Assembly: GCA_025980765.1 (NCBI GenBank)
Contig: JAICXB010000015.1
Location: 1 to 64,000 of the forward strand
Direction: 5' to 3'
DNA: 64,000 bases
DNA from: Terriglobales bacterium
Lineage (GTDB): Bacteria; Acidobacteriota; Terriglobia; Terriglobales; Acidobacteriaceae
A model generated the notes under the pieces. The model saw only the letters and a list, made by a program, of their open reading frames with translations, made no database searches and had not been told where the DNA came from. Made by a program: the position numbers and the translations under genes. Positions 27,761 to 49,194 of the stretch are shown here, piece by piece. How positions within the stretch are numbered: position 1 is the first letter of the stretch; each line of letters begins with the position of its first letter.

Positions 27761-27950
27761 GCCGCTCGCCACGATTTTCACGTCACGGAAGAAAACGCCT
27801 TCTCGCGCCAGAGTACCTCGCCTTGCCTCTGACGTCCAAGCACATCACCCGGCTTGACAAAAAGGATCAACTTGCAACAGAGTGGATGCTGTTGGCAACT
27901 AAGTAACCGAAGTAGAAGCACCAACCTTTTTGCGGGCCCCGGGGTTTTCC

Positions 27951-30900
27951 ATGAGGTGTTCTTGGCTGGCGGTACTCTGTTGTTTGCTTACTTTCTGCAG
28001 TTTTGGATTCGCGCAATGCACTCCCGCATCCGGCCAGTCGCTGGCCATTTGTAGCCCGGCTTCCGCAGCCACTGTAAGCTCTCCCGTACAATTTGTGGAA
28101 GGCGCAAGCTCGTCGATTGCAGTCTCGGCGCAGTGGGTGTACCTGGACAACGTGGTCGTTTTAAAGACCTCTTCGCCGCAGATCAACACACCCGTGAATG
28201 TGTCAGCGGGACAGCACAATTTGCGCGTCCAGACCTGGAGCACGAGCGGCACTCTCTATCAGGCAGGAGTGAACTTCACCGTGGGCAGCGGAGGCGGCGG
28301 CGCGTGCACGAATTCGGTTGTGAACAGCGTCAAGATTTGCAGCCCTCTGAATGGCGCATCGGTGACCTCGCCGGTGCAATTTGTGTCTCAAGCCAACACT
28401 GCGAACACGGTTGGATCTACTTGGGTCTACGTGGATAACACAGTGGTCTACAAAAGTCCGAAAGTTGCCAGCGTAAGCACGTCGCTGAACATTGCTCCAG
28501 GTGCGCACAATGTGCGCGTCCAGACCTGGGACGCGAATGGGAATGTCTTCCAGGCAGGGGTAAACGTTACGGTCACGTCTGGCAACGGAGTTTCCATCTC
28601 GATCACTCCCACATCTGCTTCTGTAGCCGCTGGCGGCACACAGCAATTCGGCGATACCGTTTCCGGCACTTCGAACACGAGCGTCACCTGGTCGGTAGAT
28701 GGAGTGAATGGGGGCAATTCGAGCACCGGAACGATCTCAGCAACTGGACTGTATACAGCCCCCGGTGCGGCAGGTTCGCATACCGTCAGTGTGACTAGCG
28801 TCGCCGACAGCACAAAAACAGCCAGTGCTGCTGTGACTGTGAGCAGCAGCTCTGGCGTGAGCATCACAATTAATCCAACTAGCGCGACTGTAGTGACTGG
28901 GGGTACGCAGCAATTCGGCGATACCGTTTCCGGCAGTTCAAATACGAGCGTCACTTGGTCGGTGGACGGCGTGACTGGAGGAAATTCCAGTACTGGAATA
29001 ATCTCCACAACAGGGCTGTACACGGCTCCGACTTCCAACGGTTCTCATACAGTGACTGTGACCAGCGCGGCCGATACAACCAAAAACGCCAGCGCGACTG
29101 TCACGGTTCAGTCCACCAGTTCCTGCACCAATCCTACCGTCAACAGCGTGCGCATCTGCTCGCCGGTCAATGGCGCCAGCGTGACCTCGCCAGTGCAATT
29201 CGTCTCCCAGGCCAACACTTCGAATGCGGTTGGATCGACGTGGGTGTACGTGGACAACACGGTTGTGTACAAGAGCCCCAGAGTTGCCAGTGTGAGCACG
29301 TCGTTGAGCATTGCTCCCGGCACTCACAATGTGCGCGTGCAGACGTGGGATTCCAAAGGCAATGTCTTCAAAGCGGGAGTCAACATCACGGTCACCAGCG
29401 GAAGCGCAGTTTCTGTGACCATCAGTCCAACATCGGCATCAGTTGCAACCGGCGGAACGGTGGACTTCAACGCGACCGTTTCCGGCAGCCAGAACACCGG
29501 TCTGAACTGGCTGGTCGACAACGTGGCCGGCGGAAACAGCACCACCGGCACCATCGACTCATCGGGTGTTTACACTGCGCCCAGCGCTACGGGAACGCAT
29601 ACCGTCACCGCTCAAAGTGTCGCCGATACAAGCAAGAGTGCGAGTGCCTCTGTGACGGTCACGGCCAGCGCCGGTCTCACGGTGCACCCCATCAATGCGG
29701 TGATCACGGTGAACCAGCAGCAACAGTTCACGGCCAGCGCCCTGTCCGATTGGTCGGTGGATGGAATCGCGGGAGGAAACGCCACGGTTGGTAGCATCGA
29801 TGGCACCGGGCTCTACGATCCGCCTTCAACCACCGGATCTCACACCATCACCGCGACTCTGAGGTCTGATCCCACGAAGAGCGCCAGCGCCACGGTATAT
29901 GTCGAAAACCATGCCGGCATCTTCACCAGTCGCTATGACAACCGGCGCACTGGCGAAAACACACAGGAACTTGCACTCACCACAGCCAACGTCAACAAGA
30001 ACACCTTCGGCAAGCTGTTCTCGCGCAGCACCGACGGATATACCTTCACCCAGCCGCTGTATGTCCCCAATGTGACCGTTCCCGGAAAGGGAACGTTCAA
30101 CGTCGTGTATCTCGCCACCGAGCATGACAGCGTCTATGCCTTCGACGCCGATGGGACTGTTACCTCGCCGCTATGGCATGTGAGCTTCATCGATCCGGCA
30201 AACGGGATCACTACGCTTTCCTCCACGCTGGTGGGAAGCACTGATCCCGGGCCGGAAACCGGCATTACCTCCACTCCAGTGATCGATGCATCGACGGGAA
30301 CGCTCTACGTGGTCTCACAACGCGTGAACCATTCCGTGGTGGAGACACACCTGCATGCGCTTGATATCAAAACGGGTGCCGAAAAATTTGGCGGACCGGT
30401 GAAGATTCAGGCCACTATCAAGGGCACTGGCGACGGAAATGTGAACGGCCAGATTTCGTTTAATGGAGCAAAAGAGCATCAACGCCCCGGTCTGTTGTTG
30501 GACAGCGGCACCGTTTACATCGCGTTCGCATCGCTCAACGACAACAACCCATATCACGGTTGGGTGTTTGCCTATGATGCCGGAACACTGTCTCAATTGG
30601 CAGTGTTCAACGCCAGTCCCAATGGCGGCCGCGCCGGCATCTGGCAGGCTGGATCCGGTCTCGCTTCAGATGGTTCGGCGATTTATCTTGCCACCGGCAA
30701 TGGGACCTTCGAATCCAGCGGTCCGGATTATGGCAACAGCTATGTGAAGCTTTCCAGCGGATTATCCGTGCTGGATTTCTTCACTCCATTCAACCAAAGT
30801 ACATTGTCCTCTCAGGATTTGGATCTCGGCAGTTCAGGACTGATTGTTGCACCCGACCAGAGCGGCGCTCATCCCCACATTCTCGTGGGTAGCGGGAAGA

Positions 30901-31412
30901 GTGGGGATATCTATGTGGTTGATCGCGATTCCATGGGCCACATGATCTCCGGCAGCAACAGCCAGATCGTTCAATATCTGCCGCGGGCATTGGGCGTTAA
31001 CCCGAGCGGCACGGATCAGTTCTTCGGCAATGGCGCGTACTGGAACGGGAACGTATATTTCGTCGGCTCCGTCGACAAATTGAAGCAGTTCACGCTGAGT
31101 GGTGGACTGTTGTCCACCAGCCCCATTCACCAGTCTCCGACAGTGCTCTCGTCCGGACGCTCGGCCGAGCCTTCGATCTCCTCAAACGGCACCAGCAACG
31201 GCATCGTCTGGGTGATCCAGAGCAATGCTGGCAATGCGGTGCTGCACGCGTACAAGGCGACCGACGTATCGCAGGAGCTGTACAACTCCACGCAAGCCGG
31301 AAGCCGCGACACCGCAGCCACCGTGATGAAGTTCAGTACTCCCACGGTGGTGAACGGCAAGGTCTTCATAGGGACCAAGAACGAACTGGATGTTTATGGC
31401 CTGCTGCCGTGA
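27951..31412 (+). CDS. Large secreted protein: Ig-like repeat array plus PQQ-like beta-propeller
   Basis: About 1153 residues from ATG 27951, giving a clean signal peptide (WLAVLCCLLTFCSFGFAQ). Residues about 20-660 alternate two repeat types. One contains NSVKICSPLNGASVTSPVQF and STWVYVDNTVVYKSP (three copies). The other contains SITPTSASVAAGGTQQFGD and TWSVDGVNGGNSSTGTIS (four copies plus a shorter one). From about 660 the chain reads TSRYDNRRTGENTQELAL and then propeller-like blades with VYLATEHDSVYAFDADG, GITSTPVIDASTGTLYVV and SGDIYVVDRDSMG. Probably extracellular or surface-exposed; no catalytic residues identified. Repeat copies are also close at DNA level (CAGCAATTCGGCGATACCG at 28640 and 28908). 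Confidence 0.82.
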   Translation: MRCSWLAVLCCLLTFCSFGFAQCTPASGQSLAICSPASAATVSSPVQFVEGASSSIAVSAQWVYLDNVVVLKTSSPQINTPVNVSAGQHNLRVQTWSTSGTLYQAGVNFTVGSGGGGACTNSVVNSVKICSPLNGASVTSPVQFVSQANTANTVGSTWVYVDNTVVYKSPKVASVSTSLNIAPGAHNVRVQTWDANGNVFQAGVNVTVTSGNGVSISITPTSASVAAGGTQQFGDTVSGTSNTSVTWSVDGVNGGNSSTGTISATGLYTAPGAAGSHTVSVTSVADSTKTASAAVTVSSSSGVSITINPTSATVVTGGTQQFGDTVSGSSNTSVTWSVDGVTGGNSSTGIISTTGLYTAPTSNGSHTVTVTSAADTTKNASATVTVQSTSSCTNPTVNSVRICSPVNGASVTSPVQFVSQANTSNAVGSTWVYVDNTVVYKSPRVASVSTSLSIAPGTHNVRVQTWDSKGNVFKAGVNITVTSGSAVSVTISPTSASVATGGTVDFNATVSGSQNTGLNWLVDNVAGGNSTTGTIDSSGVYTAPSATGTHTVTAQSVADTSKSASASVTVTASAGLTVHPINAVITVNQQQQFTASALSDWSVDGIAGGNATVGSIDGTGLYDPPSTTGSHTITATLRSDPTKSASATVYVENHAGIFTSRYDNRRTGENTQELALTTANVNKNTFGKLFSRSTDGYTFTQPLYVPNVTVPGKGTFNVVYLATEHDSVYAFDADGTVTSPLWHVSFIDPANGITTLSSTLVGSTDPGPETGITSTPVIDASTGTLYVVSQRVNHSVVETHLHALDIKTGAEKFGGPVKIQATIKGTGDGNVNGQISFNGAKEHQRPGLLLDSGTVYIAFASLNDNNPYHGWVFAYDAGTLSQLAVFNASPNGGRAGIWQAGSGLASDGSAIYLATGNGTFESSGPDYGNSYVKLSSGLSVLDFFTPFNQSTLSSQDLDLGSSGLIVAPDQSGAHPHILVGSGKSGDIYVVDRDSMGHMISGSNSQIVQYLPRALGVNPSGTDQFFGNGAYWNGNVYFVGSVDKLKQFTLSGGLLSTSPIHQSPTVLSSGRSAEPSISSNGTSNGIVWVIQSNAGNAVLHAYKATDVSQELYNSTQAGSRDTAATVMKFSTPTVVNGKVFIGTKNELDVYGLLP

Positions 31413-36773: not shown

Positions 36774-36868
36774 GAATCGGGTAATTGTGTAATCGGGTAA
36801 TTTGGTAATTGAAAACCAAGACCCAGGCACTTCAATTACTCAATTACGAAATTACTCAATTACAAAAT
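36774..36868. repeat. Intergenic inverted repeat, family D (copy D1)
   Basis: Left arm 36774-36813 (AATCGGGTAATTGTGTAATC words) and right arm 36831-36868 (CAATTACGAAATTACTCAAT) mirror each other with a 17-nt loop. Located in the divergent gap between the symporter (-) and the outer-membrane barrel gene (+). The remaining 210 bases to 37080 show no recognised element. Confidence 0.85.
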
Positions 36869-37079: not shown

Positions 37080-39455
37080 ATGAGCTGGTATCTCACGCGC
37101 ATCTCCGGGGCTCTGCTCGCTGCCCTATGCTTTGTCGTGCCTGTGCTTCAGGCGCAGACTTCGTCTGGTGGGGCGGAAATGCGCCAGGCATTACTCCGCG
37201 CAATGAATGCGTCCGCCGCTACGACGGCGGCTTCTGCAGCACCTCAGTCGCAATCTTCATCAACGGCGGAGACGGCCACCGCTGCAACGCCAAATCCTCA
37301 ACAGACAATTCCGGAACCCCAGGAGAAGGAGCACAACCGAGTCATACCCGGCTCGCAGCGGCGTTTGCCGCACCAGCGGGTGATTACAACCAGCGCCATT
37401 GAAGGTCTTGTAACAACCGAAGATGGCCGCGGGCTGGTTGGCAGTAAGGTGGTATTGCGCGATACCAATGGCGGCAAGCCGTTCGAGACGATGACCAACG
37501 GTGACGGCGTCTTTCGCGTGCGGGATTTGACCGCCGGCACTTATCAGCTTGATCTGAGTGCGCAGGGCTATCAGAGTTTCAGCCAGCCGAAGGTTCAGGT
37601 TGGTTCCGGGGAAGTGCTGTCGGTCGAAATCAAACTCCGTGCAACGGCAAATAACGTGGCAACGGGTCCTATGGATCGGCCGCTGGCGGGAGCAGTTCCG
37701 CCCGAGGCCGGACAGACTACCGCCGAGACGGAAGAACCTTATCGCGAGCTGCGGCGGCGTCCGAATGAAACCACGCCACAGCAGACTGCGACAGTCCAAA
37801 CTCCGCCCACAGAGAACGAAAATTTTAAGGTCGAGACTTACCGCTGGGATCCGACCGATGGGAATGACCAGGATCCTCTGCAGAGCTATCGCCGATATCC
37901 CAATTCGGGCGAATACGTAAATACCAAGGGGCACTGGTTCGATCCTTTCGATCGCAACAAGCTGAAAGGCGACTATCCGATCTTTGGCGGCCAGACGTTT
38001 TTTGCATTCACCGGCAGTGCAGTCAGCGCGCTGGATGCGCGCCGGCTGCCAACTCCCAGTCTGGTTGCCGCCCGCAATCCCGGCTCGTTCGTCTTCTTCG
38101 GCAGAGGCGGGCAATTCTTTATAGATCAAATTTTCCGTTTCACCGGAGAGCTCTATCACGGCGATACCAGCTTTAAGCCGAAGGACTGGCGAATCGTCTT
38201 CACCCCGGCATTCTCCGTGAATTACCTTGAGACCCGCGAGCGCGGCATTGTGAACATCAATCCCCAGCGCGGGACGGACCGTTTCGACGATCATGTGGGA
38301 CTGCAACAAGCATTTGTCGAGTACAAGATCCACGATCTCAGTCCTAACTACGACTTCATCTCCGTGCGCGCGGGAATTCAGCAGTTCCAAAGTGATTTCC
38401 GCGGGTTCGTCTACAACGAAGAGCAGCCGGGACTGCGTATTTTTGGCAATTTGAAGTCTGACCGCCTCGAATACAACCTGGCCTACTTCTATCACCTGGA
38501 GAAAGACACCAACAGCGGCCTGAATACATTTAACGATCGTCATCAGCAGGTGATGATTGCCAACCTCTACATTCAGGACTTTCTCTTCAAGGGATATACC
38601 ACCGAGTTCAGCTACCACTTCGATAAGGATGACCCCTCTATTTATTTCAACAACAACGGAGTCATCACCCGGCCCGAACCGATTGGCGTGGTCACGCCAC
38701 ATGGCATTCGGTCGCATTACATCGGCTGGACCAGCAATGGGCACATCAAGCGCATCAACGTCTCGCATGCCTTCTACCAGGTGCTTGGATACGACACCGA
38801 CAATCAGGTAGCGTCGCGCCGCTTCTTGCCTTGCGCGAAAGGGCCTGGACTTTGCGATGGCGTGGACATCAATGCTCAGATGGCGGCGCTCGAGCTCTCA
38901 TTAGATAAAGACTGGGTGCGTTTTCGCAGTTCGTTCTTCTACGCCTCGGGAGACAAGAATCCGCGCGACCGCATCGCCCGCGGATACGATTCCATTGATG
39001 AATCGCAGGGTTTTGCCGGTGGCGACTTCAGTTTCTGGAACCGCGAAGGCATTCGTCTGACCAGCACGTTGATCGGCCTCAAATCGCCCGATAGTCTCTT
39101 TCCCGATCTGCGCGCCAGCAAGGACGAGGGCCAGGCCAATTACGTGAACCCTGGCGCCTACGTGTACAACGCCGGGGCGGATTTCGATATCACGCCCAAG
39201 ATGCGCTGGGTAGTGAACTTCAATTATCTGGAGTTTGTGCACACTGCCCCGCTGGAGCTGACGCTATTCACCAATCACATCCACCGCGGCATCGGCGGCG
39301 ATTTCGGGACGGGCATCATCTATCGCCCGCCGTTGTCAGAAAATATGGTCTTTGAAGCCGGAGTCACCGGCCTGGTTCCCGCCCAGGGTTTGCGGGATGT
39401 TTACACAAATAAGACTTTAGTCAGCGGATTTGCATTGCTGAGGTTCATGTTCTAG
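37080..39455 (+). CDS. Outer-membrane beta-barrel protein with carboxypeptidase-regulatory-like domain
   Basis: 791 residues. Signal peptide about 1-25 (ISGALLAALCFVVPVLQA). A Gln/Thr/Ala-rich linker leads to a transthyretin-like regulatory domain (about 105-190: IEGLVTTEDGRGLVGSKVVL, TYQLDLSAQGYQSFSQP). From about 270 onward the chain is a series of amphipathic strands ending in FALLRFMF, a typical outer-membrane C-terminus with a terminal Phe. No plug domain is evident, so it differs from ordinary TonB receptors. It is followed 111 bases later by the giant multihaem cytochrome, suggesting a porin-cytochrome pairing. Confidence 0.8.
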   Translation: MSWYLTRISGALLAALCFVVPVLQAQTSSGGAEMRQALLRAMNASAATTAASAAPQSQSSSTAETATAATPNPQQTIPEPQEKEHNRVIPGSQRRLPHQRVITTSAIEGLVTTEDGRGLVGSKVVLRDTNGGKPFETMTNGDGVFRVRDLTAGTYQLDLSAQGYQSFSQPKVQVGSGEVLSVEIKLRATANNVATGPMDRPLAGAVPPEAGQTTAETEEPYRELRRRPNETTPQQTATVQTPPTENENFKVETYRWDPTDGNDQDPLQSYRRYPNSGEYVNTKGHWFDPFDRNKLKGDYPIFGGQTFFAFTGSAVSALDARRLPTPSLVAARNPGSFVFFGRGGQFFIDQIFRFTGELYHGDTSFKPKDWRIVFTPAFSVNYLETRERGIVNINPQRGTDRFDDHVGLQQAFVEYKIHDLSPNYDFISVRAGIQQFQSDFRGFVYNEEQPGLRIFGNLKSDRLEYNLAYFYHLEKDTNSGLNTFNDRHQQVMIANLYIQDFLFKGYTTEFSYHFDKDDPSIYFNNNGVITRPEPIGVVTPHGIRSHYIGWTSNGHIKRINVSHAFYQVLGYDTDNQVASRRFLPCAKGPGLCDGVDINAQMAALELSLDKDWVRFRSSFFYASGDKNPRDRIARGYDSIDESQGFAGGDFSFWNREGIRLTSTLIGLKSPDSLFPDLRASKDEGQANYVNPGAYVYNAGADFDITPKMRWVVNFNYLEFVHTAPLELTLFTNHIHRGIGGDFGTGIIYRPPLSENMVFEAGVTGLVPAQGLRDVYTNKTLVSGFALLRFMF

Positions 39456-39480
39456 GGATTTCTCGACCAAGGCGACTAGG

Positions 39481-39555
39481 GAATCGAGTGATTTCGTGAT
39501 CGGGTGATCGGGCGATTTGAAATCGCGAGATCACGAAATCACGAAATCACGAAAT
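39481..39555. repeat. Intergenic inverted repeat, family E (copy E1)
   Basis: Left arm 39481-39519 (GTGATCGGGTGATCGGGCGAT core) and right arm 39521-39555 (ATCACGAAATCACGAAATCA) form an imperfect hairpin with almost no loop. It lies between the barrel and the cytochrome genes and ends 12 bases before the cytochrome ATG, so it also covers its translation start region. Confidence 0.85.
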
Positions 39556-39566
39556 GAATTTTCTTC

Positions 39567-42500
39567 ATGGAACACCTAAAAAAATCACGCAGCTTGCGGG
39601 CAGTTATCGGATCGGCAGTCGTTTTCATCTTCATGATGTGCGTGTTGGTGCAAGCCCGGCCGGCGGCGCACAAGCAGAATCAGAGCAATACTCAGGCGGC
39701 GACCCCTCCGCAGCAGCAGGACCAGAGCAGTGAGGCCATCAACGAGCGTACGGAGAGGCGCGGGTCGCAACTTCTGATCCGCCAGACTCAGGCAGAGGCT
39801 GACGCGAAAACGCGAGGCTGCATGAGTTCGGGCTGTCATACTCCAATCGACAGCGTCACCATGCATAGCACCAGCACGGTGCGAATTGGCTGCACCGATT
39901 GCCATGGTGGCGACGCGACCGTGATGAATACCGCGGCCGCCGGTACCCCGCAATACGATGAGGCCAAACACAAAGCCCACCCTCGAGCGCGCTTCGCCGA
40001 TGACGAGAATAGGTCTGCCAACCGAGTACGCCCTTACACCCACTGGCTGAAAGAGAGCGCGGAGTGGGTGAAGTTCGTCAACCCAGGCGACAATCGCATT
40101 TCTTCCCTGACCTGCGGGCGTTCCGGGTGCCACATGGAAGAGGTCCATCAAGTCCGCACCAGCATGATGACGCACGGCGCCCTGCTGTGGGAGGCAGCGC
40201 TGTACAACAACGGCGGTTATCCCCTGAAAGATGCTCGCTTTGGTGAGAGCTACTCGATGGATGGCAAGCCGCAGCGCCTGATCACCTGGCCTCCGCCCAC
40301 ACCCGAAGAGACCAGGAAAAAAGGTGTGCTGCCGTTCCTCGATCCGCTCGAGCGGTGGGAAATATCACAACCCGGCAACGTGCTGCGCGTCTTCGAGCGC
40401 GGCGGAGAGGAAAAGGGCGAGATCGGTAATCCTATCTCCGAAGAAGATCCCGGACGTCCTGACGTAAAGCTCTCTACGCGCGGCTTCGGAACCGAACTGC
40501 GTACCGATCCCGTTTTTCTGGGCTTGCAGAAGACCCGATTGTTCGATCCTCTACTGTCATTCCCCGGGACCAACGAACAGCCCGGCGACTACCGCCAGAG
40601 CGGATGCACAGGCTGCCACGTGATCTACGCGAACGATCGCGATCCCGGGCACTCGGCGCAATACGCCCAATACGGTAATCAGGGAATGTCGCAGCAGATC
40701 GATCCGACGATTCCCAAAAATGAACATGGGCATCCACTGCGCCACATGTTCACCCTCTCCATCCCGTCGAGCCAATGCATGGTCTGCCACATGCATCCAG
40801 GCACGAATATGGTCACCACTTACTACGGCTACACCTGGTGGGACAACGAAGTCGATGGCGAGAAGATGTATCCCAAGGAGCAGCACGATCCCACCCAGCA
40901 GGAGCTGCATGACGCTGAAGTACGCGATCCGGAAGGCGCTACCGACCGCGGCAAATGGCGCGACGTGAGCTTCCTGCGTCAAGTAGGATCGCCGGAGTTC
41001 AACAAACAGCTCGACAAGACGCAGTTTGCCGACTTCCACAGCCACGGCTGGATCTTTCGCGCGGTATACAAGCACGATCGCAAAGGCAATCTGCTCGACG
41101 CCGACGATCACATCGTGGACTGGAACGATAAAGACAAATTCAAAAAAGCCGTCCACCTCGCCGACATCCACGAGGAAAAGGGCATGCAGTGCGCCGATTG
41201 CCACTTCGAGCAGGACAGCCATGGCAATGGCAAGCTCTATGGCGAGAGCCGAAACGTAATCGTTGTGACCTGCGAAAGCTGCCACGGCGACGTGACCTCG
41301 CGCGCCACCCTGGTGATGAACGGTCCAGCCGCACCAGATCACGGGATCAACATGGGCGCCAGAACCACTCCCTTTGGTGAGCGGCAGTTCTATTGGAAGG
41401 GCGACCGGCTGTATCAACGCTCGATCATGAATAAAGATTTGGAGTGGGAAGTTGTACAGGTTCTCGACACCATCACTCCCGGCCGCCCCCATTACAGTGA
41501 GAAATCCCGGTTGGCCAAGACCATCCAGAAGGATGGAGTCACATGGGGAGCGATCGTCGATCAAAACGACCTCACCAAACTCGCCCATTCCTCCAGCAAG
41601 ATGAGTTGCCAGAGCTGCCATACCTCATGGACGACCAGCTGCTTTGGCTGTCACCTGGCCATGACTGCCAATCAACGCATGCCCATGCTGCACAATGAAG
41701 GCTTGATGACGCGCAATTGGACCGCCTACGACTTCATGGTCCTTCGCGACGACGTGTACATGCTCGGGATCGACGGGACCGTAACCGGAAACCGAGTGTC
41801 GCCTGCCCGTTCCGCCTGTGCCATTATCGTCAGCTCCCAGAATGGCCAACGCGATTGGCTTTATTACCAGCAGCAAACCATCTCCGCGCCGGGATTCAGC
41901 GGCCAGGCGTTCAGTACCTACGTGCCGCATACTGTCCGCGCCAAGGAAACCAAAGAGTGTGTTGATTGCCACGTCTCGCAGCAGAAGGACAACAACGCGT
42001 GGATGGCTCAGCTCTTTATTCAGGGCACGAACTTCGTCAACTTCATGGGCCGCTACATCTATGTCGCTACTGGAGATGATGGTTTTAATGCCATCGCGGT
42101 CGCGGAACACGACGAACCGCCGGCGATCTATGGCAGCGACTTCCAGAAAATCGCTTATCCCAAAAACTATGAAGATCATGTGAAGCACCACCTGGAACTG
42201 GAAGATGTTGATGAGCACACGGTACGCGCAAAGCTGGGCGGAGAAGAAGTGCTCGATGTTCAGCTGCGTGGCGAATATCTGTATGCCGCGGTCGGCAAGG
42301 GCGGCTTCCGGATCTATGACGTTGCCCAGATCGATAACAAGGACTTTTCCGAGAAGATCACCACCGCGCCGGTGTCGCCGCTAGGACAGAGGTTGTACGT
42401 CAGGAGCAAATACGCAACCGCCATTGCCACTCCGAGCACCCTCGCCGTCGATCCCCTTCGCACCGAATATCCTCAGAACGAAGAGCAGAAGATCCACTTG

Positions 42501-43481
42501 ATGTATGGATTCCTTTACGGGACAGACAGCAAAGAAGGCCTGATCGTCATTGGCAACAAGCTGACGGACAAAAAGGATTTTGCGGGAGTGGGCACGCTGC
42601 TCGATGGAAATCCGGCGAACAACTTCCTCCATCGCGCGGTGACCTTCAATCCGGACGGAAAACTGACGGGAGCCCGTCGCATTACCATTGCCGGCGTCTA
42701 CGCCTACATCTTGTGCGATCGCGGCCTGGAGGTCGTCAGCCTTGACGATCCGCTGCACCCCAAGATCACTGCCGAGATCGGCGCGCCGATGCTCAATCAA
42801 CCCACCGGTGTGGCTGTGCAGTTCCGCTATGCCTTCATCACGGACAAAGACGGCCTCAAGGTCCTGGATGTAACCAACCTGGCCGAGCCCAAGTTCCTTG
42901 AGAACGCGAAAGTTCCGCTCAACGACGCGCGTAACGTTTATGTCGCGCGCACCTACGCCTACATTTCTGACGGCAAAGACGGCATTGCGATCGTCGATGT
43001 CGAGCGCCCGGAGCAGCCCAAACTGGACCAGATGTTCAACGCCAATGGACAGCTCAAAGACACGCGCGATTTGAAGATTGGCATGGTCAGCTCCAGCCAG
43101 TTTGCCTTCGTGGCCGACGGCGAGGCCGGATTCAAAGTCATCCAGTTGTTCTCACCGGAGGACAATCCCAAGTTCTACGGTTTCAGCCCAGAGCCGACTC
43201 CGAAGCTAATTGCCCGCTACAAAACGAAAGGCCCTGCGCTAATCGTCTCAAAGGGTGTCGATCGCGACCGTGCCGTCGATGAGAGCGGCAATCAAGTGGC
43301 GGTCTTTGGCCGCCGCGGCGCGCGTCCGTTCACGCTGCCGGAGATGCAGAAGCTGTATCTGCGTGACGGCCAGCTCTATACCGTTACCAATGATCCGCCG
43401 GGCCCGGCCATTGGCCCGCGAAACCCGCTGAAAGCCGGCGAATCGGGAGAAGACGAGAAACGCCCAAGCGGCGGAAAGTAA
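39567..43481 (+). CDS. Giant multihaem c-type cytochrome fused to an LVIVD-type beta-propeller
   Basis: 1304 residues. An N-terminal hydrophobic segment (AVIGSAVVFIFMMCVLVQA) serves as signal or anchor. Eight CxxCH haem sites are seen at about residues 109, 347, 404, 542, 569, 681, 692 and 798. Two C-x4-CH sites lie at 85 (CMSSGCH) and 183 (CGRSGCH), so up to ten haems. Residues about 810-1240 carry repeated blades such as YLYAAVGKGGFRIYDVAQI, YAFITDKDGLKVLDV and YAYISDGKDGIAIVDV, which match LVIVD repeats. No catalytic lysine motif was found. Probable role: electron transfer at or beyond the outer membrane, together with the preceding barrel. A family A repeat follows. Confidence 0.88.
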   Translation: MEHLKKSRSLRAVIGSAVVFIFMMCVLVQARPAAHKQNQSNTQAATPPQQQDQSSEAINERTERRGSQLLIRQTQAEADAKTRGCMSSGCHTPIDSVTMHSTSTVRIGCTDCHGGDATVMNTAAAGTPQYDEAKHKAHPRARFADDENRSANRVRPYTHWLKESAEWVKFVNPGDNRISSLTCGRSGCHMEEVHQVRTSMMTHGALLWEAALYNNGGYPLKDARFGESYSMDGKPQRLITWPPPTPEETRKKGVLPFLDPLERWEISQPGNVLRVFERGGEEKGEIGNPISEEDPGRPDVKLSTRGFGTELRTDPVFLGLQKTRLFDPLLSFPGTNEQPGDYRQSGCTGCHVIYANDRDPGHSAQYAQYGNQGMSQQIDPTIPKNEHGHPLRHMFTLSIPSSQCMVCHMHPGTNMVTTYYGYTWWDNEVDGEKMYPKEQHDPTQQELHDAEVRDPEGATDRGKWRDVSFLRQVGSPEFNKQLDKTQFADFHSHGWIFRAVYKHDRKGNLLDADDHIVDWNDKDKFKKAVHLADIHEEKGMQCADCHFEQDSHGNGKLYGESRNVIVVTCESCHGDVTSRATLVMNGPAAPDHGINMGARTTPFGERQFYWKGDRLYQRSIMNKDLEWEVVQVLDTITPGRPHYSEKSRLAKTIQKDGVTWGAIVDQNDLTKLAHSSSKMSCQSCHTSWTTSCFGCHLAMTANQRMPMLHNEGLMTRNWTAYDFMVLRDDVYMLGIDGTVTGNRVSPARSACAIIVSSQNGQRDWLYYQQQTISAPGFSGQAFSTYVPHTVRAKETKECVDCHVSQQKDNNAWMAQLFIQGTNFVNFMGRYIYVATGDDGFNAIAVAEHDEPPAIYGSDFQKIAYPKNYEDHVKHHLELEDVDEHTVRAKLGGEEVLDVQLRGEYLYAAVGKGGFRIYDVAQIDNKDFSEKITTAPVSPLGQRLYVRSKYATAIATPSTLAVDPLRTEYPQNEEQKIHLMYGFLYGTDSKEGLIVIGNKLTDKKDFAGVGTLLDGNPANNFLHRAVTFNPDGKLTGARRITIAGVYAYILCDRGLEVVSLDDPLHPKITAEIGAPMLNQPTGVAVQFRYAFITDKDGLKVLDVTNLAEPKFLENAKVPLNDARNVYVARTYAYISDGKDGIAIVDVERPEQPKLDQMFNANGQLKDTRDLKIGMVSSSQFAFVADGEAGFKVIQLFSPEDNPKFYGFSPEPTPKLIARYKTKGPALIVSKGVDRDRAVDESGNQVAVFGRRGARPFTLPEMQKLYLRDGQLYTVTNDPPGPAIGPRNPLKAGESGEDEKRPSGGK

Positions 43482-44350: not shown

Positions 44351-47293
44351 CTAGAACGTGAGCTTTGCCGAGAACTGAAACGATCGCGCCGCCAACTGGT
44401 TCGTGATGCCGGCAAGCGGCTGGCCGAAGGTGGAGTTGGCCGGCAGAGTGGCTCCATTCCCAAACACGCCGTTGTAGCCCACAAAGTTGGCGTGGTTGAA
44501 AACATTGAAGGCTTCCGCGCGAAGATCCAGTTGCACGCGCTCGCTCCCAAGCGGGAAAGGCCGTTCTGCAAATGGCGAGACCTCGTAAATCGCTCGACCT
44601 CTCCCGGTATTGCGTCCAACTACTACTCCGTCGATCACGGGACGATCCGCTGTTGCGCCGGGATCGCCGAAATTGTTCGCGCCGGTCGTAATGTTGAACG
44701 GCAGTCCCGAGGCCAGAGTGCCTACTCCGCCGACCGTGATGTGCAACGGCGCGACATAGAATCCGCTGAGGACGAAGCGATGGCGCTGGTCGAAAATGGC
44801 GTCGCCGTACTCGGCCGCGCCGACAAAATTCGGATCATTAGGATTCTGCTGGGGAACGTCGGGATCCACGTTGTCGCTGGTATGCGAGTACACATAGCTG
44901 GCCAGCATGGAGAACCGGCTGGTGAAGCGGTGGTTGAGGTTCAAGTTGAAGGAATTGTAGTGCGCGTAGCCGTCATTTATGTCGGTCTGGATGACGGTAT
45001 AGGGCGGTTGTGGACCGGTGGCTTTCGCTGGATTGCACGCTAAACCATTCTGGGAATAAAAGGACATCCAGAACGGCCGCGTGCAGTTGGCCGCCTGCGC
45101 TGTCCGCACTTGCCCTGGCGCGGTGCGGACGAATGGTGCGGGCGCATCCACGTCCAGCGGGCGATTAATCTTCACGGTGTGGGAACCCACATAATCCATA
45201 CTCAGCACCCAGTCCGGGACGAACTGATGTTCGATCCCTAGGGTCCATTGTTCCGAGTATGGATTCAGCAGTGCGTCAGGATATTGGGTTAGAGTGGCAA
45301 CCGGGAAGAATTGGTCATAAAACGAGGCCCTGCCCGGGCGGATATAGATGCTGCGCGGCGGCAGCACCGCGCCCGATGGGAATGCCTGCAGCGGAGCTGC
45401 GGAAACACTCTGCGGAAAACCGATCTGTCCGGCTTGCGCGGTGAAGTTGAATACCCCGGTCGGTCCGGAGAGCGCGTAATTCGCTTCGGAATTATCGACT
45501 ACCTGCGAGTAGTAGATTCCGAAGCCACCGCGAAGCGTAGTGGTGTCATGGCCGTGCAGGTTGTAAACGAAGCCGAATCGAGGCGCGAAATCCTTTCTCG
45601 AATCGGTGAACGTCTGTTGTTCATAACGCAAACCGAAGTTGATGGTAACGTCGGGACGTAGTCGAAAATCATCCTGCACAAACAATGCCCAGAGCGTGTC
45701 ATCGACGGTGTAGCTTCCATTGCCGAAGCTTTGGGTGTAGCTGTTGACGTTCGCGATGTCTCCAAGAAACGCCGGGCCCTCACAAATGGAGAGGCTTTGC
45801 GTGCAGGTTTTGTACGTGAACTGTCCAAGAAAAATCGGGCCGCCAAATTCCTTGCTGTCGCCGCCGTTGTGCGCGTGAATGACATCGGCTCCGAATCGCA
45901 CTTGATGACGTCCCCACGAAGCTGAAAACGTGTCCGCAGCCTGGTACTGCCGGTTCTGCAGCAGAGCCGATTGCGAGGTCCCGGTGGTGAAGGTTCCCCC
46001 AGACGTTGTTGGAACGACGAACTGCGTTCCCAAAACGACCGGATCAAACTCCGTGATCGGTGAAGCCAGCTGAAACTGCAGGCGCGCATTGTTCAGCAGG
46101 GAAGAACTCAGGATTGCCGTTTCCCCCAGCTCCGTCGAGTAGGTGCGCCGTTTAAAGATGCGGTCCACTGTAGGCAGGGTATTGCCACCAACGGTGCCGT
46201 TTGGGTTGGTGTCATGAAAACTGTCGGCATCTTCAACCAGGAAGAGAGTATTGTTTTCGTTGATTTGATGGTCGAGGCGCGCATAAGCCAGCCATCCGCG
46301 ATAGTGTCCGACGAAGCTGCCGAGAGCGATCGGAGATGTAATCGGAGAGGCACGGTCCTGCCAGCTATATTCGCCGGACAGAAAAAAATGAGTGCGATTG
46401 CTGGCGCCAATCGGACCACCAAGCGAAGCTGCGCCCTGCGTCAATTTGTCGCTGGTGAGATCGTTGCCATTGGCGGCGCTCGTCGTAGTGAATCCGGACA
46501 GTTTGGCCCCGAGCGACGACGGCCGGAAAAGCCCGAGCGCATCACCATGAAACTGATTGCCGCCGCTGCGCGTAACGATGTTGACTACGCTCCCCGCACT
46601 GGCTCCGTACTCGGCGGAAAATGCGTTCTCCAGAACCGTCATCTCCTGCACAGCATCGACCGGAATGTTGGAGAAGATTGTCTGTCTTCCCCACAAGTCA
46701 TCGCCGGTTCCGCCATCGACTTCGAACCATGCTTGCCGCCGCCCTCCGCCATTGGTGGTGAACAAGTTCTCATTCATGAACGCGTCGCCCTGATTGATCG
46801 CCGGACGATTGGCCGCGTTCAGCAAAGGCAGGAAAGTGATTCTCCGGTTTAGAAGCGGCGTTTCTTCCACTTGCGAGGTCCCCAGAAGATCGCCAAGTTG
46901 GGGTTCGTCGGTGCGAACTTCTCCGGCAATTCCGGTAACATCGACCTGCGTCTCGCCACCCGTCACGCTGAGTTCCAGTTTGAGGTTCGCGCTCGTGCCA
47001 CCGCTGAGTGTGATTCCTTCCAGATGAGCGTCGGCAAATCCTTGCCTGCTGGCCGTAATCGCATACGTTCCCGAAACGGGAAGTCCGGCGAGAGAAAAGC
47101 TTCCAGAATGATCGGTGTGCACGCTGCGCTGCAGACGAGTCAGGCTGTTGGTGGCGGTGACCTGCACACCAGGAATGGCAGCTTGACTCTGATCGATGAC
47201 AATGCCGTGTATGGTGGCGGTGTCAGGGGTCTGAGCTGAGGCGAAAATGGAGAAGCTAAAAATGAGCAGCAGTAACGCAGATCGAGCAGTCAA
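44351..47293 (-). CDS. TonB-dependent outer-membrane receptor with carboxypeptidase-regulatory-like domain (Oar-like)
   Basis: 980 residues. Signal peptide (ALLLLIFSFSIFASA). A regulatory-like domain (about 25-110: TIHGIVIDQSQAAIPGVQVT, FADAHLEGITLSGGTSANLK). A plug-like domain (about 130-250: VDAVQEMTVLENAFSAEYG, SAGSVVNIVTRSGGNQFHGD). Then a large barrel ending FQFSAKLTF. This Oar/TonB type is abundant in Acidobacteria. The substrate is probably a carbohydrate or peptide but cannot be told; there is no neighbouring degradative gene. The terminal Phe is right for outer-membrane assembly. Confidence 0.93.
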   Translation of the reverse strand: MTARSALLLLIFSFSIFASAQTPDTATIHGIVIDQSQAAIPGVQVTATNSLTRLQRSVHTDHSGSFSLAGLPVSGTYAITASRQGFADAHLEGITLSGGTSANLKLELSVTGGETQVDVTGIAGEVRTDEPQLGDLLGTSQVEETPLLNRRITFLPLLNAANRPAINQGDAFMNENLFTTNGGGRRQAWFEVDGGTGDDLWGRQTIFSNIPVDAVQEMTVLENAFSAEYGASAGSVVNIVTRSGGNQFHGDALGLFRPSSLGAKLSGFTTTSAANGNDLTSDKLTQGAASLGGPIGASNRTHFFLSGEYSWQDRASPITSPIALGSFVGHYRGWLAYARLDHQINENNTLFLVEDADSFHDTNPNGTVGGNTLPTVDRIFKRRTYSTELGETAILSSSLLNNARLQFQLASPITEFDPVVLGTQFVVPTTSGGTFTTGTSQSALLQNRQYQAADTFSASWGRHQVRFGADVIHAHNGGDSKEFGGPIFLGQFTYKTCTQSLSICEGPAFLGDIANVNSYTQSFGNGSYTVDDTLWALFVQDDFRLRPDVTINFGLRYEQQTFTDSRKDFAPRFGFVYNLHGHDTTTLRGGFGIYYSQVVDNSEANYALSGPTGVFNFTAQAGQIGFPQSVSAAPLQAFPSGAVLPPRSIYIRPGRASFYDQFFPVATLTQYPDALLNPYSEQWTLGIEHQFVPDWVLSMDYVGSHTVKINRPLDVDAPAPFVRTAPGQVRTAQAANCTRPFWMSFYSQNGLACNPAKATGPQPPYTVIQTDINDGYAHYNSFNLNLNHRFTSRFSMLASYVYSHTSDNVDPDVPQQNPNDPNFVGAAEYGDAIFDQRHRFVLSGFYVAPLHITVGGVGTLASGLPFNITTGANNFGDPGATADRPVIDGVVVGRNTGRGRAIYEVSPFAERPFPLGSERVQLDLRAEAFNVFNHANFVGYNGVFGNGATLPANSTFGQPLAGITNQLAARSFQFSAKLTF

Positions 47294-47382: not shown

Positions 47383-48009
47383 TCAGGACGTGGGGACCGA
47401 CTTCAATGCGGGCGCCGGCTTACGCGATGCGATCCGGTCGACGATCCGGAACGCCAGCAGCGCGGCCAGAATGCCGGCCATGATCTCCGGGCGGGTGAGG
47501 TCGCGTTTTACCAGCCACCAGAAGTGGACGACGCCCGCTATGGCGCTGCCATAGATCAACCGATGCAGGTTCTGCCAGCGTTTTCCTCCCAAGCGTCGAA
47601 TCGAAGCTGCCGTCGACGTAAACGCGAGAGGGGCCATCAGGCACCACGCAGTAAATCCGGCGGTGATGAAGGGCCGCTTGTACACGTCTTTGACGATCTC
47701 ATGGATATCGAAGAACTTGTCGAACCAGAGATAGGTCATCAGGTGCAGGCAGCCGTAGAAAAACGCGAACAGCCCGACCATTCGCCGGAAGCGAATCAAC
47801 CAGTTCAGCCCGGAGAGCTTCCGCAGCGGACTAATCGCCAGTGTGATCAGCAGCAGGTAAAGGGTCCAGTGTCCGGTCGAAAACGTGATCTCGCTCAGCG
47901 GATTAGCGCCGAGCTCATCATGAGTCGCCTTCCAGACCAGCAAGCTTACCGGCGAAAGACAAAGCGCCCAGACGAGGACTTTAAGGAGAATGATGAATCG
48001 GCGAGGCAT
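47383..48009 (-). CDS. msrQ: MsrQ, haem-binding membrane subunit of periplasmic methionine sulfoxide reductase
   Basis: 208 residues, five to six transmembrane helices of the ferric-reductase-like domain. Haem-ligand His residues are in FFYGCLHLMTYLW and WQNLHRLIYGSAIAGVVHFWW. LSPLRKLSGLNWLIRFRRMVG-like and KRPFITAGFTAWCLMAPLAF segments match MsrQ/YedZ. It passes electrons from the quinone pool or flavin to MsrP. msrP lies directly upstream; a composite family B repeat of about 225 bases separates the two genes. Confidence 0.95.
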   Translation of the reverse strand: MPRRFIILLKVLVWALCLSPVSLLVWKATHDELGANPLSEITFSTGHWTLYLLLITLAISPLRKLSGLNWLIRFRRMVGLFAFFYGCLHLMTYLWFDKFFDIHEIVKDVYKRPFITAGFTAWCLMAPLAFTSTAASIRRLGGKRWQNLHRLIYGSAIAGVVHFWWLVKRDLTRPEIMAGILAALLAFRIVDRIASRKPAPALKSVPTS

Positions 48010-48017
48010 GAAAAAAA

Positions 48018-48242
48018 GCTGCTGGCTCCTAGCTGCTGGCTGCTAGCCAAGACACAAAACCAAGAGCAACAGCTTTACCACGGATTTCACGGCACGAGCA
48101 CGGATTGCACGGATTCATTTCTTTCTCTTGCTTGATATAGATCCGTGCGATCCGTGTACATCCGTGAAATCCGTGGTAAAGCTGTTGCTCTTGGTTTTGC
48201 TTTTGCCGTTAGCTGGTAGCCAGTAGCGAGCAGCCAGAAGCT
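48018..48242. repeat. Composite nested inverted repeat, family B (copy B2), with perfect 37-bp arms
   Basis: Outer arms 48018-48048 and 48208-48242 carry AGCTGCTGGCTGCTAGC-type words. The inner arms 48056-48092 and 48162-48198 are perfectly inverted over 37 bp (modules CCAAGAGCAAC, AGCTTTACC and ACGGATTTCACGG). The centre continues with CACGGATTGCACGGAT against ATCCGTGCGATCCGTG. The right outer arm overlaps the msrP stop (48241-48243) and the left begins 8 bases before the msrQ ATG, so the element fills the operon gap. Confidence 0.92.
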
Positions 48243-49194
48243 AAAAATACTTCTTCAAATCCATCCCGCTATACAGGCTCGCGACCTGGTCGCCGTATCC
48301 GTTGAACATCAGCGTTTTGCGTTTCAGGAATTCGCCAATGCGGCGTTCGGTCGCCTGGCTCCATCGGGGATGATCAACGTTGGGATTCACGTTTGAATAG
48401 AAACCATACTCGTTGGGCGCAGCTTTATTCCATGCGGTTGCCGGTTCGTGGCCGACGAAATCGATTTTTACGATCGACTTGATCCCTTTGAAGCCGTATT
48501 TCCACGGCACCACAATCCGTACCGGCGCGCCGTCTTGATTGGGAAGCGTTTCGCCATACATTCCAAAAGTAAGCAGCGTGAGCGGATTCATGGCTTCGTC
48601 CATTCGCAGGCCTTCCGTATAAGGCCAGTCGAGCACGTTCGAGCGCTGGCCGGGCATTTCGGAGGGCCGGTAAACGGAAGTGAAGGCCACATATTTGGCT
48701 TTCGACGTGGGCTGCACCTGATCGATCAGCTTGCTCAGCGGGAATCCCACCCAGGGAATCACCATCGACCAGCCTTCGACGCAGCGCATGCGATAAATCC
48801 GCTCTTCCAGCGAGGCCAGCTTCATCAACTCGTCAAGATCATAGGTTTTCTTCTGCGCGACCGCGCCCGTCACCTGCACCTTCCAGGGACTGGTCTTGAA
48901 GTTGCGCGCCAGGTCTGCCGGCCCATATTTGTCCACGCTGAATTCATAAAAATTGTTGTAGTTGCTGATGTCCTTCAGCGGGGTCAGCTTCTCGTCAGTC
49001 GAGAAGGAGCTCTTCACGGTGGAGAGCTTGGTGTTGGCCTCAACGGTTTGCGATGGACGCGCCATCTCACAAGCGCCGGTGGCCAGCGCGGCGCCAAAGA
49101 TCGTGGCCCCGGAGATGAACTTGCGCCGATCCAGGTAGAGAGATTTTGGCGTGATTTCAGAAGAAGGAATATCGGCAGCTTTCTTGATTAGCAT
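48241..49194 (-). CDS. msrP: MsrP, molybdopterin catalytic subunit of periplasmic methionine sulfoxide reductase
   Basis: 317 residues. A Tat signal, [20 protein letters not shown] (about 22-41), exports it folded. The sulfite-oxidase-like fold has the Mo-coordinating Cys in [17 protein letters not shown] (about 137), with FPLSKLI and [20 protein letters not shown] following. The tail [20 protein letters not shown] is typical. It reduces oxidised Met in periplasmic proteins using electrons from MsrQ. Strain-specific targets are unknown. Confidence 0.96.

Follow-up and report, generated by a model that had tools for sequence, protein, structure and literature searches.

What is a gene for a multihaem cytochrome fused to a beta-propeller doing directly behind a gene for an outer-membrane barrel? 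The two genes lie at positions 37,080 to 43,481 of a 64-kb stretch of contig JAICXB010000015.1 of a Terriglobales bacterium, the whole of which was analysed (the window). The original prediction regarded them as a possible extracellular electron-transfer unit, in which the two proteins would form a conduit across the outer membrane. We found both open reading frames (ORFs) where they had been placed and conclude, with moderate confidence, that a dedicated, NADH-fed electron-transfer chain ends at the outer membrane in this pair. Two of the three findings that would have refuted the prediction, a barrel of the normal TonB-receptor kind and a pair that does not co-occur in other genomes, were looked for and did not arise, and the genome also encodes an electron chain across the envelope. 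The literal conduit, with the cytochrome threading the barrel, was not supported, given a barrel lumen of ~21 Å and no match to PF11854 in the genome.

The cytochrome has the following features, of which the haem sites come from a motif scan and an alignment of 119 sequences.

39567..43481, + strand: decahaem cytochrome fused to a seven-bladed propeller, 1304 aa (ORF, motif scan, Pfam, structure model)
39567..39659, + strand: probable Sec signal peptide of the cytochrome, no lipobox (hydrophobic N-terminus)
39819..39839, + strand: haem site 1, CX4CH (CX2CH in most relatives)
39891..39905, + strand: haem site 2, CX2CH
40113..40133, + strand: haem site 3, CX4CH
40605..40619, + strand: haem site 4, CX2CH
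40776..40790, + strand: haem site 5, CX2CH
41190..41204, + strand: haem site 6, CX2CH
41271..41285, + strand: haem site 7, CX2CH
41607..41621, + strand: haem site 8, CX2CH
41640..41654, + strand: haem site 9, CX2CH
41958..41972, + strand: haem site 10, CX2CH
42048..43265, + strand: seven-bladed beta-propeller, LVIVD type, ~residues 828-1233 (Pfam PF08309 and model)

The scan returned exactly ten haem motifs, of which eight are CX2CH and two are CX4CH, as had been predicted. Shuffled versions of the protein (n=2000) had a mean of 0.03 motifs and a maximum of two, and no other ORF of the 64-kb window has two or more. All ten sites were kept in 119/119 sequences of the alignment. The CX4CH spacing had been thought unusual, but it interchanges with CX2CH among relatives: it occurs at haem 1 in eight and at haem 3 in 76 of the 119 sequences, the remaining haems being always CX2CH. 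We therefore rejected it as a distinguishing trait. Ten histidines outside the motifs (100, 138, 389, 393, 410, 493, 535, 552, 674, 788) were 98-100% conserved. Ten haems with ten additional conserved histidines would suit electron-transfer haems of the bis-His type, a pairing that we infer. Its conserved CXnCH sites and export signal make the protein a multihaem c-type cytochrome.

The LVIVD-type blades predicted at the C-terminus were borne out. The Pfam LVIVD profile matched the cytochrome with 54 bits (cut-off 20.2), and residues 749-1154 of the structure model (828-1233 of the protein, ~406 residues) superposed on solved seven-bladed propellers, most closely on the archaeal surface-layer YVTN propeller 1l0q (Z 28.5, root-mean-square deviation (rmsd) 2.4, 278 residues). 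A Pfam score above the cut-off together with a propeller fold identifies an LVIVD-repeat propeller. This part was predicted mostly at a predicted local distance difference test (pLDDT) score >90; the model of residues 80-1279 had a mean pLDDT of 70 and a predicted template modelling score of 0.78, and Foldseek searches with the whole cytochrome matched mainly propellers. Matches to cytochrome cd1 were most likely caused by the propeller and were discarded. One propeller histidine, His884, was 96% conserved in the alignment. The LVIVD name is employed in a study of the repeats of cell-surface proteins (PMC2447325). Propellers of this type occur in surface proteins; the domain probably docks a partner or a substrate.

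The partner gene lies upstream and encodes these features.

37080..39455, + strand: outer-membrane barrel protein, 791 aa, partner of the cytochrome (ORF, Pfam, structure model, co-occurrence)
37080..37157, + strand: probable Sec signal peptide of the barrel, VLQA-QT (hydrophobic stretch 2-20; cleavage site by eye)
37398..37637, + strand: CarboxypepD_reg sandwich, residues 107-186, accessory (Pfam PF13620, 4.8e-17; pLDDT ~95)
37842..37994, + strand: conserved pre-barrel segment, ~residues 255-305, RW...DPYNQN.LKGDYPI (invariant R, W, K and D columns)
37995..39449, + strand: 18-stranded barrel, AlgE-like fold (structure model and superposition)

In the predicted structure, the CarboxypepD_reg sandwich is followed by a disordered linker and a barrel whose 18 transmembrane strands mostly exceed pLDDT 90, and the C-terminal residue is a phenylalanine, which is usual among outer-membrane barrels. 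This agrees with the regulatory-like N-terminal domain and the missing TonB plug of the original prediction: there was no Pfam match to the Plug domain up to E 1, and the protein has neither the plug nor the 22-stranded barrel of a TonB-dependent receptor. The CarboxypepD_reg domain is present in closer relatives and missing from most of the distant ones. The best superposition was on AlgE (5d5d; Z 27.3, rmsd 3.0, 359 residues, 11% identity), i.e., the fold is that of an AlgE-type 18-stranded barrel. At the sequence level, there was no alginate-export Pfam match, and no Pfam or NCBIfam model covers the barrel; a profile of 52 barrel sequences matched no chain of the PDB up to E 10, and single-sequence PDB searches gave no useful match. 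MtrB-type barrels have 26 strands. The MtrB_PioB family (PF11854) was found neither in this protein nor in the source genome, so that both hallmarks of an MtrB/PioB porin are missing. The computed lumen is ~21 Å for 18 strands, against ~35 Å for a 26-stranded barrel such as MtrB. The strongly conserved segment just ahead of strand 1 is a possible docking site or peptide.

The barrel and the cytochrome behave as near-obligate partners. Of 396 Acidobacteriota genomes, 42 had the cytochrome, and 41 of these also had the barrel, which was absent from the remaining 354. The single genome with a cytochrome and no barrel match (G639) has the cytochrome on a 4.3 kb contig. The cytochrome was found in 61 of 399 genomes of a class-level sample, and across 61 close relatives full barrel matches were confined to genomes holding it. 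In 86 of 97 loci the barrel gene immediately preceded the cytochrome gene, on the same strand; the other 11 comprised five cut by contig ends, three whose barrel match lay at another place in the locus and three without any. With its dedicated porin adjacent to a multihaem cytochrome, the pair has the gene arrangement of a porin-cytochrome complex (PCC). Three planctomycete loci (L145, L173, L185) had a cytochrome without an adjacent barrel, and in L185 the decahaem and membrane genes of the chain described below, with two c554-like genes, took its place. We also observed a broken cytochrome frame in a genome of the same genus (G004:C247 19052-22785) and a broken barrel frame in L112 (5212-7314), each a sequencing error or a decaying copy.

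A wider scan used one genome per species, and the relatives described here are the best 80 of at least 570 related loci. These 80 were 49-68% identical over nearly the whole length of the cytochrome. Their record titles name Acidobacteriota, Planctomycetota, Nitrospirota, Binatota, Rokubacteria, Verrucomicrobiota, Ignavibacteriota/Chlorobiota and one deltaproteobacterium, i.e., at least eight bacterial phyla, although titles of metagenome-assembled genomes (MAGs) may be wrong. The family is also held by isolates (Planctomycetes Pan216, Rubripirellula obstinata, Neorhodopirellula pilleata, Roseiconus nitratireducens). A tree of 72 sequences grouped mostly by phylum, with few changes of label, and the family therefore looks old.

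We clustered the neighbourhoods of 100 loci around the pair. An HbpS-like haem-binding protein recurred, adjoining the pair at about every second locus. The other recurring neighbours were a NuoE-NuoF fusion, a HoxU/NuoG-like iron-sulphur (FeS) protein that carries cyclic-nucleotide domains, a decahaem cytochrome anchored to the membrane at its N-terminus, c554-like multihaem proteins and a small membrane protein. In the source genome the genes of this chain lie away from the pair, in a compact operon on contig C55 (L218).

C55 12178-14040, - strand: NuoEF, a NuoE-NuoF fusion (operon member)
C55 9989-12202, - strand: FeS protein with cyclic-nucleotide-binding (cNMP) domains and HoxU/NuoG-like N-terminal domains (operon member)
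C55 9090-9986, - strand: membrane protein (operon member)
C55 7596-9080, - strand: membrane-anchored decahaem cytochrome (operon member)
C55 14149-15609, + strand: c554-like cytochrome, divergent from the operon (neighbour)

The membrane protein has WX3HX13H motifs at 77 and 273, SGIIG at 119 and five hydrophobic stretches. Across 19 sequences the four histidines, the serine, both glycines and W77 were invariant, and W273 was conserved in at least 90%; a PDB profile search with this protein returned only coiled-coil noise. An operon of this kind adjoins the pair on contigs of Acidobacteriota, Nitrospirota, Phycisphaerae and Ignavibacteria. The membrane protein and the decahaem cytochrome were both present in 10/10 tested genomes with the pair and both absent from 2/2 without it. 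Within the 396 Acidobacteriota, the decahaem cytochrome (E <= 1e-25) was found in 21 of 42 pair-holders vs 6 of 354 others (odds ratio 58; Fisher p 3e-18, a guide only, as shared ancestry is ignored). In several pair-holders without a decahaem gene of the C55 type, other multihaem genes adjoin the pair. Loci of the Ignavibacteria type (L183 10671-13507, L180 16560-19555) have operons extended by FHA-domain proteins, one of which, in L183, forms a fusion with a pyridine-nucleotide oxidoreductase. In Nitrospirota, the decahaem protein sometimes has a long N-terminal extension that is FHA-like in look.

The scheme that we favour builds on what is shown: the genes present, the predicted folds, the conservation of the haem sites and the co-occurrence. 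NADH would reduce the NuoEF-like flavoprotein, which would pass electrons to the HoxU/NuoG-like iron-sulphur protein with its cyclic-nucleotide-binding domains. This protein would deliver them to the five-helix inner-membrane protein, with two putative b haems, and the latter to the periplasmic decahaem cytochrome anchored in the inner membrane. From there they would reach the decahaem domain of the window cytochrome, which the 18-stranded barrel would keep at the outer membrane. The propeller may be the docking or substrate-binding head, and the external partner could be a metal oxide, a humic quinone or another compound. We infer haem loading, complex formation, the order and direction of transfer, surface exposure and the external partner. 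With an NADH module at the head of the chain, outward flow is favoured over a possible reverse flow. A further-reaching version is tentative and, in our view, doubtful: a quinone-independent route from NADH to the surface, in which a nucleotide-regulated diaphorase, a b-haem protein and 20 c haems would lead to a terminus of a new kind, in which an AlgE-like barrel is joined by a decahaem cytochrome capped with a propeller. Such a route would be widespread, in lineages with which extracellular respiration is mostly not associated.

Several observations weigh against the scheme. The model of the haem domain is weak, with pLDDT <60 over long stretches. The cytochrome of the window has no lipobox, and we rejected lipoprotein anchoring as a general trait, with only ~7 plausible lipoboxes in 118 relatives. 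Half of the pair-holders of the phylum are without a close decahaem cytochrome of the C55 family. Finally, the lumen of the barrel is too small to sheathe the decahaem domain. Since MtrB-like sheathing would need a wider barrel, this one may instead anchor the cytochrome, give a short path through haems or loops, or admit a soluble partner.

The strongest alternative is a multihaem oxidoreductase of the periplasm that has a substrate porin to itself. A soluble substrate would enter through the barrel, the cytochrome, NADH-fed or feeding respiration, would act on it, and electrons would stay inside the cell. AlgE/OprD-type barrels, the best fit of the barrel, are solute channels, and the cytochrome has weak profile similarity to octahaem nitrite reductase (1.1e-5). 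Yet its matches to solved proteins were limited to two short haem stretches, the motif scan found CXnCH sites and no CXXCK catalytic haem, and the set of candidate distal histidines is full. We rejected an identity with octahaem nitrite reductase or NrfA on the first two of these grounds, and judge the oxidoreductase explanation as a whole unlikely.

A surface assimilatory reductase of ferric or haem iron, serving iron supply and not energy, seems improbable. The membrane protein resembles ferric reductases and NADPH oxidases (NOX) in its haem arrangement, and the frequent HbpS-like neighbour would suit such a role, but the neighbourhood clustering revealed no recurring siderophore or TonB-receptor family adjoining the pair, and 20 haems are many for a chain that supplies iron. 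We give even less credence to an MtrCAB-type conduit with the decahaem domain threaded through the barrel: the porin-cytochrome pairing is tight and the haems are ten, as in MtrA, but the strands are 18 and not 26, the lumen is correspondingly narrow, and the MtrB_PioB family is missing from protein and genome. An ordinary TonB-dependent receptor beside an unrelated cytochrome can practically be dismissed, for although CarboxypepD_reg also occurs on TonB-type barrel proteins, e.g., that of the neighbouring gene 44351-47293, the strand number, the absent plug and the near-perfect co-occurrence contradict it.

That neighbouring gene (44351-47293, - strand) encodes an Oar-like protein with CarboxypepD_reg and a TonB-type barrel (OMP_b-brl_4, 2.2e-89), a barrel class unlike that of the pair. 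Positions 47383-49194 (- strand) encode a Ferric_reduct membrane protein with a molybdopterin oxidoreductase upstream, resembling the MsrQ-MsrP periplasmic methionine sulphoxide reductase pair. A secreted protein of 1160 residues with repeated Ig-like domains is encoded at 27930-31412 (+ strand). The gap between the genes of the pair holds an 8-base tandem repeat, GAAATCAC x4.6 (39519-39555), and similar 8/16-base repeats lie at 36775-36868. Scans for promoters and terminators yielded no more matches than shuffled sequence did.

If the favoured scheme is true, a largely undescribed electron path across the whole envelope is present in many Acidobacteriota and Planctomycetota of soil and water, among them the cultured Rubripirellula obstinata and Roseiconus nitratireducens. 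The known reach of extracellular electron transfer would widen, and a sharp marker gene would be gained. The scheme also raises a structural question, namely in what way a barrel of 18 strands assists a ten-haem protein in passing electrons.

Porin-cytochrome pairs as a kind are already known; the architecture, the spread and the linked chain appear undescribed as far as we searched, and within that search no paper joined LVIVD with outer-membrane multihaem cytochromes. The pair is probably the same as the 'group 1' pairs of MAGs from the Sterkfontein karst (PMC13264449, June 2026), compared here by description only. In the parts of that paper available to us, group 1 comprises 11 pairs of a 4-5 kb decahaem gene and a porin of ~20 strands, the PCC-holding MAGs are largely Gammaproteobacteria or Acidobacteriota with two Planctomycetota, and a ferredoxin-NADP reductase gene lies near 7/11 pairs. 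The same parts describe neither an AlgE-like fold nor an operon leading from NADH through FeS and b haem to a decahaem protein; the word 'propeller' is absent from the paper, whereas the window cytochrome ends in one, and its ORF measures 3.9 kb.

PCC3 and PCC4 share with our system a porin, multihaem cytochromes and an inner-membrane protein with a WX3HX13H pair and SGXXG, a set found in the C55 protein. The accessible text of He et al. 2017 (PMC5566968) gives two WX3HX13H and SGXXG as the hallmark of PCC3/PCC4 inner-membrane proteins, and HX13H pairs as common to b-haem binding in ferric reductases and NADPH oxidases. It also reports that the PCC3 and PCC4 proteins differ overall, and the likeness of the C55 protein is hence one of motifs and not of homology. 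In PCC3, the porins reach 42 strands and the cytochromes have median values of 34 and 21 haems, against 18 strands and ten haems in the window, which sets the pair apart from PCC3. For PCC3/PCC4, coupling to the quinone pool was proposed, with neither a propeller fusion nor an NADH module in the text available. MtrCAB, MtoAB and PioAB also combine a porin and decahaem cytochromes across the outer membrane, but their barrel belongs to a separate Pfam family, for which the genome of the window gave no match, and they have no propeller. The alginate exporter AlgE shares the fold of its 18-stranded barrel and differs in sequence, at the low identity given above and with no PDB profile match. Finally, the NuoE-NuoF fusion and the HoxU/NuoG N-terminal domains of the C55 operon recall HoxEFU and NuoEFG, but here the module is fused to cyclic-nucleotide-binding domains and tied to a b-haem-type protein and a decahaem cytochrome, instead of to a hydrogenase or complex I.

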